From contig NZ_FXZH01000012.1 in NCBI RefSeq assembly GCF_900169365.1, positions 1-64,000 of the forward strand: DNA of 64,000 bases, in the 5' to 3' direction. Source of the DNA: Brevibacterium sp. 239c. Its GTDB lineage: Bacteria; Actinomycetota; Actinomycetes; Actinomycetales; Brevibacteriaceae. The translations under genes and the position numbers were made by a program. Position 1 is the first letter of the stretch. Every line of letters begins with the position of its first letter. Positions 38,855 through 64,000 of this stretch are shown here, in pieces. The notes beneath the pieces were generated by a model. The model ran no database searches. It saw only the letters and a list, made by a program, of their open reading frames with translations, and was not told the origin of the DNA.

Positions 38855-39468
38855 TGAGCAACGAGAACGCCCCCGGCGAGAACACGGACGAGGCCACAGT
38901 CAACGACAATCCCTTCGAAAACGAAGAGCTGCAGCCGAAGGACCGCGAGGTCGAGCCCGAGCACGCAACCGATGATCCCGGTCGTGAATACGACGAGCCG
39001 GAAACTATGGTCATCGTCGAGCCGGGCATCGACAACGACCGTGAGCGTCACCCGTCGTCGGGCCCCAGCAGTCCCAGCGAGCCCCGGCGCCCAGGCGGTG
39101 GTTCACGTCAGGCTCCCAGGCAGGAGCATGACGCACCGGTCACCTCGGCGGATCGGGTCATCCCGGGTGAGATCTTCCTCAAGGAAGAACCGATCGAAAT
39201 CAATGCGGGACTCGCAGTCACGGCACTGCACGTGGCCAACGTCTCCGACCGGCCGATCCAGATCGGATCGCATTTCCACTTCGCCGAGGTCAACCCCGGC
39301 CTCGAATTCGACAGAGCTCGAGCGTGGGGAAAGAGGCTGAATGTGATGTCGGGAGGTGCGATGCGCTTCGAACCCGGCGCAGACGAGGAAGTCGAACTCG
39401 TCCCGATCCAGGGTGCACGCATCGCACTGGGATTCCGCGGAGAATGCAGAGGAGAGTTGGATGGTTGA
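38851..39468 (+). CDS. ureB: Urease beta subunit with long acidic N-terminal extension
   Basis: 205 residues, roughly twice the usual UreB. The standard domain begins near residue 103 ([21 protein letters not shown]) and runs to [11 protein letters not shown]. The first 100 residues are strongly acidic and Pro/Ser-rich and look disordered. The extension is in frame and overlaps ureA by four bases, so it is probably translated. Its role is unknown. The gene overlaps ureC by eight bases. Confidence 0.9.
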
Positions 39469-41174
39469 CATATCGAGGTCCGAATACGTTGCATCGTTCG
39501 GCCCCACCGTCGGTGATCGTGTCCGCCTGGCCGACACAGACATCGTCATCGAGATCGAGAAGGACTACTGCGTCGGAGGCGACGAAGTGGTCTTCGGCGG
39601 CGGCAAGTCCGCCCGCGAATCGATGGCTCAGTCCTCACGCACTCGCGCTGAGGGAACCCCAGACCTGATCATCACCGGTGCGATCATCCTCGACCACTGG
39701 GGAGTCGTCAAGGCCGACGTGGGCATCCGCGACGGCAAGTTCGTCGCGATCGGCAAGTCCGGCAACCCGGACACGATGAATGGCGTCCACCCGGACCTCG
39801 TTGTCGGCCCCAACACCGAGGTGGCCAGCGGCAATGGTCTGATCATGACACCGGGCACCATCGACACTCACGTTCATTTCGTGGGCCCCGACCAGTTCGA
39901 AGTCGGCCTCATGGCCGGCACGACGACCATGGTCGGCGGCGGCACTGGACCCACCGAGGGTTCGAAGGCAACGCTGGCGACCCCGGGCCCCTGGTGGCTG
40001 GCACGGATGTTCGAGTCGATGGACCCCTGGCCGGTCAACGTCCTCTTCCTCGGTCGTGGCAACACGATGAACGAAGAGGCCCTGTACGAACAGCTGCGCG
40101 GCGGTGCCGCCGGCTTCAAGATCCACGAGGACTGGGGCGCTACCCCGGCCGTCATCGACAAGGCCCTGTCCGTGGCCGATGACACCGGCGTCCAGGTCGC
40201 CATCCACTCGGACACTCTCAACGAGGCCGGCTTCGTTGAGGACATGCTCAAGGCCGTCGACGGCAGGACCTTCCACTCCTTCCACACAGAAGGTGCCGGA
40301 GGCGGGCACGCACCCGACATCATCAAGGTCGCTTCGGAGCTCAATGTGCTCCCAGCCTCGACGAACCCGACCCGCCCATTCACGGTCAACACCGTCGATG
40401 AGCACCTCGACATGGTCATGGTCGCCCACCATCTCAACCCGCAGGTGCCCAACGACCTCGCGTTCGCCGAATCGCGTGTCCGGGCCGGCACCATCGAGGC
40501 CGAAGACGTGCTCCAGGACCTCGGGGCCCTGTCGATCATGTCGTCCGACGCCCAGGCGATGGGTCGCATCGGTGAAGTCGCCATGCGCACCTGGCAGACG
40601 GCCCATCAGATGAAGAAGCTGCGCGGGCCCCTGGCCGGAGACGACCGGGGCCGACAACAACCGAGCACGGCGCTACATCGCGAAGTACACGGCCAACCCG
40701 GCCATCGCCCACGGCATCGACTCCTATGTCGGATCGATCGAACCGGGCAAGCTTGCTGACTTCGTGCTCTGGCAGCCGTCGATGTTCGCCGTCCGGCCGC
40801 ACACAGTGTTCAAGGGCGGGATGGCAGCGGTCGCCGCACTCGGTGATCCGAACGCTTCGATCCCGACCCCACAGCCGGTGTCCGAACGTCTCGGTTTCAA
40901 CTTCCGGTCCGCCTCGGCGGCAGCCACGAGCCTTGCGTTCGTGTCCGAGCAGGCCATCGAGGACGACATCGCGGGCAAGCTCGATAAGGTCCAGCGCGAC
41001 TTCGTGCCGATCACCTCGACGCGGAAGGTGACGAAGGACGACATGATCGAAAACTCGGCCCGCCCGCACATCGAGGTGAATACCGACACCTATGCGGTCA
41101 AGGTCGATGGAGAGCTCATCGAGCACCGGCCCGCCGAGTTCGTGCCCATGGCTCAGCGCTACTTCCTGTTCTGA
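39461..41174 (+). pseudogene. ureC: Urease alpha subunit, interrupted by one-base frameshift
   Basis: Two frames together encode a full-length UreC of about 570 residues. [15 protein letters not shown] (the carbamylated lysine), [17 protein letters not shown] and MSSDAQAMG supply the nickel ligands and catalytic residues. After LRGPLA near residue 393 the frame breaks; removing one G at 40637/40638 restores [17 protein letters not shown] and the rest. The change may be a real mutation or a sequencing error. The active-site flap reads MVAHHLN, with Ala322 in place of the cysteine normally in MVCHHL. As written the enzyme would be truncated and inactive. Confidence 0.88.
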
Positions 41175-60731: not shown

Positions 60732-61532
60732 ATGACAGAACACGCCAGCACCCAAGACCAGACTCACCTCGGCGCGCGATTCGCCGGTCAGGTCGCACTC
60801 ATCACCGGTGCCAGTCGTGGAATCGGACTCGGCATCGCCAAGCGGCTGCAGGCAGAGGGTGCCACCGTCATCCTCACCGCCCGAAAACCCGAGGCCCTCG
60901 CCGAGGCGGTCGCGCAATTCCCCGAAGGCACTGCCCTGGCTATTGCCGGGAAGTCCGATGACCCCAAGCACCGCGCGGAGGTCTACGACACGATCGCGGA
61001 GAAGTTCGGTCGACTCGATGTGTTGGTCACGAACGTGGGCATCAACCCGGTCTACGGTCCGCTCATCGACCTTGACCTAGATGCCGCTCGCAAGATCCTC
61101 GACGTCAACGTCATCGGCACGCTTGCCTGGGTGCAGGAGGCAGTCCATCACGAGAAGCTGGGCTTCCGTGAGAACAAGGGGCGGGTCGTGAGCGTCTCCT
61201 CCGTAGCCGGTCAGGTTCCCAGCCCCGGCATCTCCTTCTATGGCATCTCGAAGGCAGCGGTGTCACACCTGACGAAGTCCCTGGCCGTCGAACTCGGTCC
61301 TGATATTCGCGTCAATGCTGTGGCCCCAGCAGTGGTCAAGACGAACTTCGCCACTGCGCTCTACGAAGGCAAAGAAGAGGAAGTCGCCTCCGCCTACCCA
61401 GCCAAGCGGCTCGGCACCCCCGAGGACATCGCCGCTGCCGTGGCCTACCTGGCGTCCTCGGATGCCGACTGGATCACCGCCCAGGTGCTCACCGCCGACG
61501 GTGGAGTCATCACTGCCGGCGGAAAAGCCTAG
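60732..61532 (+). CDS. Short-chain dehydrogenase/reductase
   Basis: 266 residues. TGASRGIGLGIA binds the cofactor; TNVGIN replaces the common NNAG; Ser in VSSVAG and YGISK supply the catalytic residues. Substrate unknown. GATG near 60718 is a weak ribosome site. It is followed by a perfect palindromic repeat and a spacer leading to gcvP, and is divergent from the DUF1990 gene. Confidence 0.88.
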   Translation: MTEHASTQDQTHLGARFAGQVALITGASRGIGLGIAKRLQAEGATVILTARKPEALAEAVAQFPEGTALAIAGKSDDPKHRAEVYDTIAEKFGRLDVLVTNVGINPVYGPLIDLDLDAARKILDVNVIGTLAWVQEAVHHEKLGFRENKGRVVSVSSVAGQVPSPGISFYGISKAAVSHLTKSLAVELGPDIRVNAVAPAVVKTNFATALYEGKEEEVASAYPAKRLGTPEDIAAAVAYLASSDADWITAQVLTADGGVITAGGKA

Positions 61533-61540
61533 CCGGTCAA

Positions 61541-61605
61541 GGATTTCGCGGGAACAGAACCTCGATCGAATCAACGAATTTCGAGGTTCTGTTCCCGCGA
61601 AATCC
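61541..61605. repeat. Palindromic repeat, family B, 25-bp arms
   Basis: Arms at 61541-61565 and 61581-61605 are perfectly complementary over 25 bases with a 15-base loop. The arms contain GGATTT and GGGAACAGAA, as does the element at 53020-53080. It lies 9 bases after the SDR stop and could also act as terminator. Confidence 0.9.
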
Positions 61606-61689
61606 TCGAATACGTGAGTGCGAACAGTCCGAGCTCCGCGTGAGCTGGGACCGCTATCTCGCCGTTCGTCCGACTGGCCTAGTAGCCAG

Positions 61690-61749
61690 CCCAGTGATCG
61701 GCCCAGTGACCGGCCCAGTGACCGGCCCGGCAACCGGCCCAGTGACCGG
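61690..61749. repeat. 12-bp tandem repeat CCCAGTGACCGG
   Basis: Five units at 61690, 61702, 61714, 61726 and 61738; three are exact CCCAGTGACCGG, one has T for C, one is diverged. It lies in the spacer upstream of the glycine riboswitch. Confidence 0.88.
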
Positions 61750-61910
61750 TCCAATGCCCTGCTCAGGACCCGGTTCAGGGCCCAGTCCACGGTGTTTGTC
61801 CGCCGTGATCTCACCCACTAGACTTGGCCCCATAAGTACATAGCCACATCAGCAACAAGTAAAACCAGCAACAAGCAGAACCACACAATTGAATACTGCC
61901 GTTAAGACAT
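61750..61910. other. Spacer and presumed gcvP promoter
   Basis: The remainder of the 609-base spacer between the SDR gene and gcvP. It is A/C-rich after 61830 (AGCAACAAGTAAAACCAGCAACAAG), as in many leader regions; TACATA near 61837 is a possible -10. No gene seen. Confidence 0.4.
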
Positions 61911-62031
61911 GACGTGGGAGAGCTGCTCAACTGTCGCAACCACCGGTTGCCCGAACAGTGCGAAGCAGCGCCGTAGGTGCAATTCCCTCCCCGGGAAACT
62001 CTCAGGCCCAGTACCACCGATTGCAGGCATA
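61911..62031 (+). promoter_or_regulatory. Glycine riboswitch aptamer upstream of gcvP
   Basis: The spaced conserved words of the glycine aptamer are present: GGGAGAG at 61916, then GCCGTAGGTGCAA near 61969, and CTCTCAGG at 61999 followed by GTACCACCGATTGCAG. It lies about 110 bases before gcvP, the glycine-cleavage gene such switches usually control. Glycine binding should increase expression. I see one clear aptamer; a second, degenerate one before the start codon is possible. Confidence 0.85.
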
Positions 62032-62079
62032 TCTGAAGGACCGCTACCGCGCTCGCGCGTTGTCAGTCCGACAGAACGG

Positions 62080-62138
62080 GGAGGACCACCACTGCTCAGT
62101 GCGTCCTCCATAGGCGGGCGCGACACCGACCCGAGGAC
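62080..62138 (+). promoter_or_regulatory. Riboswitch expression platform with alternative pairing
   Basis: GGAGGAC (62080-62086) pairs with GTCCTCC (62103-62109) to form a hairpin with an inner CACTG/CAGTG stem. The same GTCCTC can instead pair with GAGGAC (62133-62138), the ribosome site of gcvP. No T run follows, so control at the level of translation is likely. Confidence 0.55.
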
Positions 62139-62141
62139 GGC

Positions 62142-64000
62142 ATGACCAGTTCACACGCCCACACAAGTTCACTCGCGCACACCACCGCCCCCACCGGAGA
62201 CACCGAACGTCCCTTCTCCGACCGGCACATCGGCCCCCGCGCCGACGACACCGCGGCCATGCTGGCCGAACTCGGCTACGACTCCCTCGAAGCGCTGTCG
62301 GCCGCAGCCGTCCCAGAATCCATCCAGATCGACGGACTCGACCTGCCCACCGGCCGCTCCGAAGCCGAGGTCCTCGGTGACCTCCGCGCGATCGCCGGCC
62401 AGAACGTCATGCGCACGCAGATGATCGGCCAGGGCTACTACGACACGATCACCCCGGCCGTCATCCGCCGCAACCTGGTCGAGAACCCCGCCTGGTACAC
62501 CGCTTACACCCCGTACCAGCCCGAAATCTCCCAGGGCCGCCTCGAAGCGCTGCTGAACTTCCAGCAGGTCGTCCAGGACCTCACCGGCCTCGACATCGCC
62601 AACGCCTCCCTCCTCGATGAGGCCACCGCCGTCGCCGAGGCCGTCCTCCTCATGCGTCGAGCAGTGAAGAAGGGGACGACCGTCGTCCTCGACTCCGAAC
62701 TCCATCCGCAGACCATCGCCGTCGTCCGTGCCCGCGCGAAGGCTATGGACTTCCGCGTCACCGTCGCTGACCTGGCCAAAGGCCTCGTAGGCGAAGATAT
62801 CTTCGGCATCGTCTGTGCCCAGCCCGGCACCACCGGAGTCATCCGCGACTTCACCGAAGCCGTGGACGGCGCCCACGATCGCGGCGCACTTGTGACCTTC
62901 GACGCCGACCTCCTGGCCCTGACCCTGCTCAAGGATTCCGCCTCCCAGGGCGCCGACATCTCCGTGGGCTCGGCCCAGCGCTTCGGTGTTCCCCTGTTCT
63001 TCGGCGGACCCCACGCCGGCTTCATGGCCGTGAAGTCCGGCCTCCAGCGCCAGCTGCCCGGCCGCCTCGTCGGTGTCTCCAAAGATTCCCAGGGCAAACC
63101 CGGTTACCGCCTGGCCCTGCAGACCCGTGAGCAGCACATCCGCCGCCAGAAGGCGACGTCCAACATCTGCACCGCGCAGGCACTGCTGGCCAACGTGGCC
63201 TCCATGTACGCCGTCTATCACGGCCCCGTCGGCCTGACCCGCATCGCCTCCCGCATCCACCGCCTGGCCCAGGCCTTCGGAGCGTGCGCGGACACCGCAC
63301 CCGGCGCCGAGGTGGTCAGCCGCGAATTCTTCGACACCGTGGCCATCCGCGTCGCCGACGCAGAAGCAGCCAGAGTCGTGTCCGAACGCGCCGGTTTCAA
63401 TATCCGCGTCATCGACGACTCCACCATCGGCGTCTCCTTCGGCGAACCACACTCGGTCGCCGATGCCAACGGACTGCTTGAAGCCCTGGGAATCATTGCC
63501 CGCATCGATGAAGCGGACTTCGAAGCCGCCTCGGCGGGGACATTCGGTGCCAACCATGTTCCGACCCCAGCCTTCGACGCGACCTTCCACCGCGATACCG
63601 AGTTCCTCACCCACCCCGTCTTCAGCGCACACGGGTCCGAGACCTCGATGATGCGCTACCTGCGCACCCTCGCTGACCGGGACCTGGCGTTGGATCGGAC
63701 CATGATCCCGCTCGGCTCGTGCACGATGAAGCTCAACGCCGCGGCGGAGATGGAACCCATCACCTGGCCGGAGTTCGCTTCCATCCACCCCTTCGCCCCC
63801 GTCGAGCAGACTCATGGCTGGCGAAACCTCATCACCCGTCTGGAGAACTCGCTCGTCGAGGTCACCGGCTATGACCGTGTGTCCCTGCAGCCCAATGCAG
63901 GCTCTCAGGGTGAGCTGGCCGGGCTGCTGGCGATCCGCAACTTCCATGTGGCCAACGGTGAGGCCAACCGCGACGTGGTCCTCATCCCGCAGTCGGCTCA
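62142..64000 (+). CDS. gcvP: Glycine dehydrogenase (decarboxylating), P protein; partial
   Basis: 619 codons are visible before the window ends; complete P proteins are 950-1000 residues. FSDRHIGPRADDTAAMLAELGYDSL, then MIGQGYYDTITPAVIRRNLVENPAWYTAYTPYQPEISQGRLEALLNFQ, and LGSCTMKLNAAAEM are family landmarks. It decarboxylates glycine with pyridoxal phosphate and passes the aminomethyl group to the H protein. The PLP lysine lies beyond the edge. The ATG at 62142 has GAGGACGG upstream. It is preceded by a glycine riboswitch. The rest of the gcv genes are not in view. Confidence 0.96.
   Translation, partial: MTSSHAHTSSLAHTTAPTGDTERPFSDRHIGPRADDTAAMLAELGYDSLEALSAAAVPESIQIDGLDLPTGRSEAEVLGDLRAIAGQNVMRTQMIGQGYYDTITPAVIRRNLVENPAWYTAYTPYQPEISQGRLEALLNFQQVVQDLTGLDIANASLLDEATAVAEAVLLMRRAVKKGTTVVLDSELHPQTIAVVRARAKAMDFRVTVADLAKGLVGEDIFGIVCAQPGTTGVIRDFTEAVDGAHDRGALVTFDADLLALTLLKDSASQGADISVGSAQRFGVPLFFGGPHAGFMAVKSGLQRQLPGRLVGVSKDSQGKPGYRLALQTREQHIRRQKATSNICTAQALLANVASMYAVYHGPVGLTRIASRIHRLAQAFGACADTAPGAEVVSREFFDTVAIRVADAEAARVVSERAGFNIRVIDDSTIGVSFGEPHSVADANGLLEALGIIARIDEADFEAASAGTFGANHVPTPAFDATFHRDTEFLTHPVFSAHGSETSMMRYLRTLADRDLALDRTMIPLGSCTMKLNAAAEMEPITWPEFASIHPFAPVEQTHGWRNLITRLENSLVEVTGYDRVSLQPNAGSQGELAGLLAIRNFHVANGEANRDVVLIPQSA

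Follow-up and report, generated by a model that had tools for sequence, protein, structure and literature searches.

The window, a stretch of 64,000 nucleotides from Brevibacterium sp. 239c, ends within a gene whose complete product (983 amino acids) matches TIGR00461 with 1245 bits (cut-off 859), in agreement with the assignment to gcvP made in an earlier note on this DNA. On the same strand gcvP is followed by gcvT, gcvH and an L-serine ammonia-lyase gene (sdaA), and the operon is catabolic, directed to glycine and serine breakdown. That note had also placed a glycine riboswitch ahead of gcvP, and Rfam cmscan of the window confirmed it with an RF00504 match of 37.7 bits (gathering threshold 32; E 0.00049). 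The element belongs to RF00504 by its covariance score above gathering, and is predicted to bind glycine; it is the only RF00504 copy in the source genome. A degenerate second aptamer was considered and rejected, as a permissive Rfam scan (E up to 5) gave no further match in 61800-62250. The features of the leader are collected in Table 1.

Table 1 Positions of leader features within the window
Feature	Position	Strand	Remarks
Promoter-like pair TTGTCC / TAGACT	61796-61824	+	weak; possible leader start
P0 5' strand TGCC	61897-61900	+	pairs with GGCA 62026-62029; leader-linker helix
Glycine aptamer (RF00504)	61905-62026	+	Rfam cmscan
P1 5' strand GTGG	61914-61917	+	pairs with CCAC 62014-62017; only four Watson-Crick pairs
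P3b hairpin TTCCC-TCCCC-GGGAA	61983-61997	+	loop is one side of P5
Strand 1, CCTCCCCG	61986-61993	+	eight-pair alternative helix with 62077-62084
Ghost-aptamer P1 5' strand TCTG	62032-62035	+	pairs with CAGA 62072-62075
Strand 2, CGGGGAGGAC	62077-62086	+	holds P5 partner GGGGA and hairpin 5' arm GGAGGAC
Strand 3, CGTCCTCC	62102-62109	+	hairpin 3' arm; also anti-Shine-Dalgarno
Strand 4, GAGGACG	62133-62139	+	gcvP Shine-Dalgarno region; pairs with strand 3
gcvP, 5' part	62142-64000	+	runs past the window

Directly 3' of the aptamer, TCTG and CAGA are assigned as P1 of a lost second aptamer, the ghost, on which the aptamer is predicted to dock. Ghost P1 has three or four standard pairs in 55/55 Brevibacterium leaders, its strands lying 19-119 nt apart. 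Because the aptamer lies 5' of the ghost, the leader, judged from its sequence, ranks as a glycine riboswitch of the type-1 singlet kind, with an aptamer and ghost P1 ahead of gcvP-gcvT-gcvH-sdaA. Type-1 singlets are described as the usual singlet kind before glycine-cleavage genes, 93% being said to be so placed (Crum 2019, PMC6944388). Ruff 2016, Torgerson 2020 and Tezuka 2014 are cited in this work by way of PMC13104608, PMC5666159 and PMC9481103. The element in the window is an ordinary riboswitch of a known type; its expression platform is unusual.

RF00504 was found in 55 of 57 Brevibacterium genomes, with one match each, and a 56th genome (G041) carries the same leader with a long P2 insert and no RF00504 match (L136). 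No gcvP match was found in G050, the second genome without an RF00504 match. Fifty-six leaders were fetched and 55 parsed, L014 being left out because its contig ends before gcvP. The P2 insert (61927-61964 in the window) is very variable in size, the distance from GGGAGAG to CTCTCAGGC ranging from 57 to 135 bases across the genus. The insert probably depresses the Rfam score, and would account for the missing match in G041. The closest named contigs over the gcvP start are those of B. aurantiacum, B. antiquum and B. sp. ZH18 (95-97% identical). A leader-linker K-turn would combine a P0 helix with tandem G-A pairs; in the parsed leaders the P0 core GCC/GGC was present in 55/55 and a standard outer pair in 27/55. 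A -10-like word lies 5' of the aptamer in 41/55 leaders, and a consensus sigma-70 scan of the leader region returned no promoter. A 12-base unit, GCCCAGTGACCG, occurs in 5.4 copies (61689-61753) in the gap that separates the leader from the SDR-family gene upstream of it.

Elsewhere in the window, a match to RF02514 (5_ureB_sRNA, 50.6 bits, 39616-39905, minus strand) falls within a urease alpha-subunit ORF (39356-40759, plus strand), in antisense orientation, and probably reflects urease coding sequence, not an sRNA gene. Of the 573 positions of the profile this ORF matches no more than the initial 400, and ureC may therefore be interrupted.

The P3b loop and the G-tract behind the ghost aptamer

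UCCCC, the loop of P3b (61988-61992), and GGGGA (62078-62082) are complementary. In 55/55 Brevibacterium leaders GGGGA lies 2-3 bases 3' of ghost P1, and the complementarity to the loop is kept in all of them. We traced this complementarity through the 55 Brevibacterium leaders, through gcvP loci of other genera (62 of 66) and through a class-wide sample. The loci L058, L082, L090 and L111 gave no parse (L058 still entered the SD-duplex and tails-only masking sets), in the class-wide sample L155 was unparsed and L172 was without P3b, and a phylum sample (L207-L231) was left out of the analysis. Rare variants covary, as in ACCCC/GGGGU (L184), GCCCC/GGGGC (L192), ACUCCC/GGGAGU (L170) and CCUCUCC/GGAGAGG (L179). 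The complementarity is weak or broken in L146 and L173, and gcvP was found at neither. The permutation test set aside L107, L165, L201 and L206, whose captured sequence held aptamer 2 alone. In it the score of the cognate pairs was equalled by 6/2000 permutations of the 83 distinct combinations, by 116/2000 of the 23 variant combinations and by 52/2000 of the 15 most divergent, in each case with relatedness uncontrolled.

We considered this contact as a new finding and rejected the idea, since it has already been described: it is the known P5 pseudoknot, here kept across a ghost aptamer as a predicted pairing. P5 is known from tandem glycine riboswitches of the ON type (Torgerson 2020 as cited in PMC13104608), and the latter source reports it as frequent in ON and absent from OFF glycine switches. 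In those parts of the glycine-riboswitch literature that were available to us, we found no mention of P5 in singlets. The earlier note overlooked P5, as well as the operon and the ghost aptamer. P5 pairing would withdraw GGGGA from the upstream hairpin, a push opposite to the direction which that note had assigned to glycine.

The hairpin arm and the gcvP ribosome site

The earlier note had proposed that the 3' arm of this hairpin can pair either with its upstream partner or with the gcvP ribosome site, and this alternative proved exact: GTCCTCC (62103-62109) forms seven Watson-Crick pairs with either GGAGGAC (62080-62086) or GAGGACG (62133-62139). The Shine-Dalgarno (SD) duplex with ACCTCCTTT amounts to -5.9 kcal/mol. 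Folded alone, the hairpin reaches -15.9 kcal/mol (z -2.0) and the stretch from the arm to the SD -18.4 kcal/mol (z -1.1), and the whole leader has no advantage in folding over shuffled sequence (z -0.75). When 62087-62132 was shuffled, a seven-pair upstream helix arose in 109/5000 sequences, a seven-pair SD helix in 93/5000 and both in 12/5000. Seven contiguous pairs with GCGTCCTCC were found at 0/48 ORF starts and six pairs at 2/48, a chance level that refers to script-chosen starts of the window only, one of which (antisense to gcvP) is surely spurious. Some SD complementarity is to be expected, because the arm complements a purine-rich, SD-like strand.

The absence of a T-run terminator, also claimed previously, held in that 61500-62300 contains no terminator-like site, and an intrinsic terminator was rejected on this ground. 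With the terminator absent and the SD engaged in one of two mutually exclusive helices, the platform fits the translational type, and switching is predicted. The hairpin loop CACTG is complementary to codons 3-4 (CAGT) in the window; the match is striking there, but we do not claim it as an extended pairing, since the sequence around the start is different in L015, L016 and L021. The first gcvP codons carry a near-duplicate 18-base unit (AGTTCACACGCCCACACA, 62148-62182). The gcvP start is ATG in the window (GGCATGACC) and apparently TTG, a weak start, in many relatives, among them L022, L030, L114 and L121 (GGCAATTGACC).

The GTCCTCC arm is present in 37/55 parsed leaders (hereafter the window's group), and 18/55 have other hairpin arms or none. 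The two arms vary jointly in the genus, for example as GAGCAC/GTGCTC and GGAGGAC/GTCCTCC. Strand 3 keeps at least six pairs with the SD in 35/37 arm-bearing leaders.

In unconstrained ensembles of five segments of the window leader, strands 1 and 2 were predicted to pair at 0.78-0.98 and strands 3 and 4 at 0.67-0.99, leaving the SD unpaired at no more than 0.10. Forcing the aptamer core raised the pairing of strands 2 and 3 to 0.69-1.00 and the unpaired SD to 0.39-0.71, which fits the proposal that glycine favours the upstream hairpin. This part of the earlier reading weakened when P0 and ghost P1 were forced as well: the hairpin then fell to 0.05-0.47 in 4/5 segments, with the pairing of strands 3 and 4 best or equal in 4/5. 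Across the group the unconstrained SD-covering fold (strands 3 and 4) exceeded 0.5 in only 6/37 same-arm species. Strands 1 and 2 exceeded 0.5 in 15/37, and the predicted OFF helices are thus weakly robust across the 37 leaders. Strands 2 and 3 exceeded 0.5 in 21/37 unconstrained leaders and in 30/37 with the aptamer forced. In RNA ending after strand 3 the hairpin is already dominant in 30/37, window included, and in most species this dominance is predicted with or without the aptamer.

Several versions of the thermodynamic sign tests (tails only; full leaders) gave no strong agreement. With aptamer and ghost P1 forced, the start site became more than 1 kcal/mol cheaper to open in 14/37 leaders and costlier in 4/37. 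The median opening cost was 5.8 kcal/mol in free leaders, 4.8 with aptamer and ghost, and 6.5 with GGGGA masked in addition, differences that we judge to be no larger than the uncertainty of the energy model. Relative to the unmasked aptamer, masking GGGGA as in P5 opened the start by 1 kcal/mol in 0/37 leaders and closed it in 19/37.

Direction of the glycine response

Glycine riboswitches of catabolic genes have been described as ON switches (PMC13104608), and the nature of the operon together with this literature makes a glycine-ON assignment plausible by analogy. We regard a four-strand, translational glycine-ON route as the most likely arrangement, at a probability of roughly 0.4. Without glycine, strand 1, in P3b of the aptamer, would hold strand 2, so that strand 3 would be left free to cover the SD. 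When glycine closes the aptamer, strand 1 would return to it, strand 2 would pair with strand 3, and the exposed SD would switch on glycine breakdown through gcvP-gcvT-gcvH-sdaA. The base of the proposal is the aptamer, ghost P1, the complementarity of P3b loop and GGGGA, the hairpin and the arm:SD complementarity, from which we infer the relay between strands. Such control is plausible because the eight-pair helix, a lengthened form of the P5 pairing, predicts an OFF fold with GTCCTC over the ribosome site, and because the forced aptamer usually restores the hairpin.

An ON response could also be driven by P5 itself. Glycine would dock the aptamer on ghost P1, the P3b loop would take GGGGA, and the hairpin, here the OFF state, could not fully close, so that expression would rise; the hairpin would act on transcription and not on the SD, by pausing or by a U-less or Rho-linked stop. 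We hold this to be unlikely, though it has several observations in its favour: the reported occurrence of P5 in ON and not in OFF switches (PMC13104608), the fixed place of GGGGA behind ghost P1 in every Brevibacterium leader, the early dominance of the hairpin once strand 3 has been transcribed, and the joint variation of its arms. It finds no terminator-like site to act through, however, and leaves the arm:SD complementarity (at least six pairs in 35/37 leaders) unexplained.

The loci outside the genus bear on the sign of the response. In 40/63 of these gcvP loci the strand that follows the last aptamer makes a direct helix of at least five bases with the SD-to-start region, against 4/63 for the next ten bases; the same direct pairing occurs in 0/37 leaders of the window's group and in 7/18 other Brevibacterium leaders. 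The Arthrobacter layout is typical and has GAGGAAC after the aptamer and GTTCCTC between SD and ATG, and L079 has GAGGGAC/GTCCCTC. An Arthrobacter-like anti-RBS layout was also observed in the gcvP leaders L143, L151, L158 and L167, where GGAGGCC follows aptamer 2 and GGCCTCC separates the SD from ATG. Masking bases 1-7 of the post-aptamer strand outside the genus opened the start in 34/63 loci and closed it in 2/63, whereas masking bases 1-7 of strand 2 in the window's group opened it in 2/37 and closed it in 31/37 (at least 1 kcal/mol). Masking bases 8-14 acts much alike, so these figures report the sign of the wiring, and the P5 bases by themselves cannot be credited with it. Should P5 be the contact of the bound state, the relatives would be plain ON switches; the window's group would then be inverted, except if the OFF state is now provided by the eight-pair helix. 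The competition for the ribosome site is real; the direction given here for the effect of glycine is tentative, since the wiring seems to be reversed in relatives from other genera.

A tentative and rather unlikely generalization is that the hairpin arm inverted the platform in the B. aurantiacum-linens lineage. The strand captured by P5, an anti-RBS in the relatives, would have become an anti-anti-RBS, so that P5 would close the start site; either glycine then lowers gcvP, or P5 was demoted and the new helix drives an unchanged response.

It is doubtful that the arm:SD complementarity is a by-product, with regulation following another route, such as a helix of the G-rich stretch 5' of the SD with CGCCC in the first codons. 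Strand 3 has to complement GGAGGAC, which is itself SD-like, and predicted folds of several relatives show other start-site hairpins, but seven pairs were matched at none of the 48 other starts, and the two pairings together were rare in the shuffles (12/5000). About as doubtful, though like the P5-driven ON switch a live rival to the four-strand route, is a switch in which glycine forms P5, frees strand 3 to cover the SD and thereby lowers the gcvP operon: the 31/37 closures on strand-2 masking, set against 34/63 openings and 2/63 closures outside the genus, and the P5 complementarity preserved in 37/37 leaders agree with it, but it is physiologically odd for a glycine-cleavage operon, the similar effect of bases 8-14 makes the masking test unspecific to the P5 bases, the effect is small in the full-length context, and P5 is reported to be absent from OFF switches (PMC13104608).

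Comparison with known glycine riboswitches

Glycine riboswitches are a standard model for the communication between aptamer and expression platform. As a lone annotation the riboswitch of the window is ordinary; the near genus-wide combination of aptamer and P5 with rewired downstream sequence offers a natural test of the role of P5 and of whether a single hairpin can reverse a riboswitch.

The leader resembles type-1 singlets (Ruff 2016 as cited; Crum 2019, PMC6944388) in having an aptamer followed by ghost P1 and glycine-cleavage genes downstream. It departs from those described in PMC6944388 in its group-specific hairpin with an anti-SD arm, its four-pair Watson-Crick P1 and its extended P2. 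As in the P5 of tandem ON switches (Torgerson 2020 as cited in PMC13104608), the P3b loop is C-rich, and the G-tract of the window lies directly 3' of ghost P1. In tandem switches the G-tract lies directly 3' of the second aptamer, whereas P5 in the window would span the ghost instead, and in the window's group, unlike in tandem P5, the G-tract doubles as the 5' arm of a hairpin (PMC13104608). The platform can also be set beside the translational gcvT switch of Neisseria gonorrhoeae (PMC13104608), which likewise has no intrinsic terminator, is a glycine ON switch, as we propose for the window, and uses aptamer sequence to help cover the translation start, as is predicted here. The gonococcal switch, however, is tandem, and bases of P3a, P3 and P1 of its aptamer 2 pair with the start region directly, with no relay arm, whereas the proposed route in the window would pass through strands 2 and 3.
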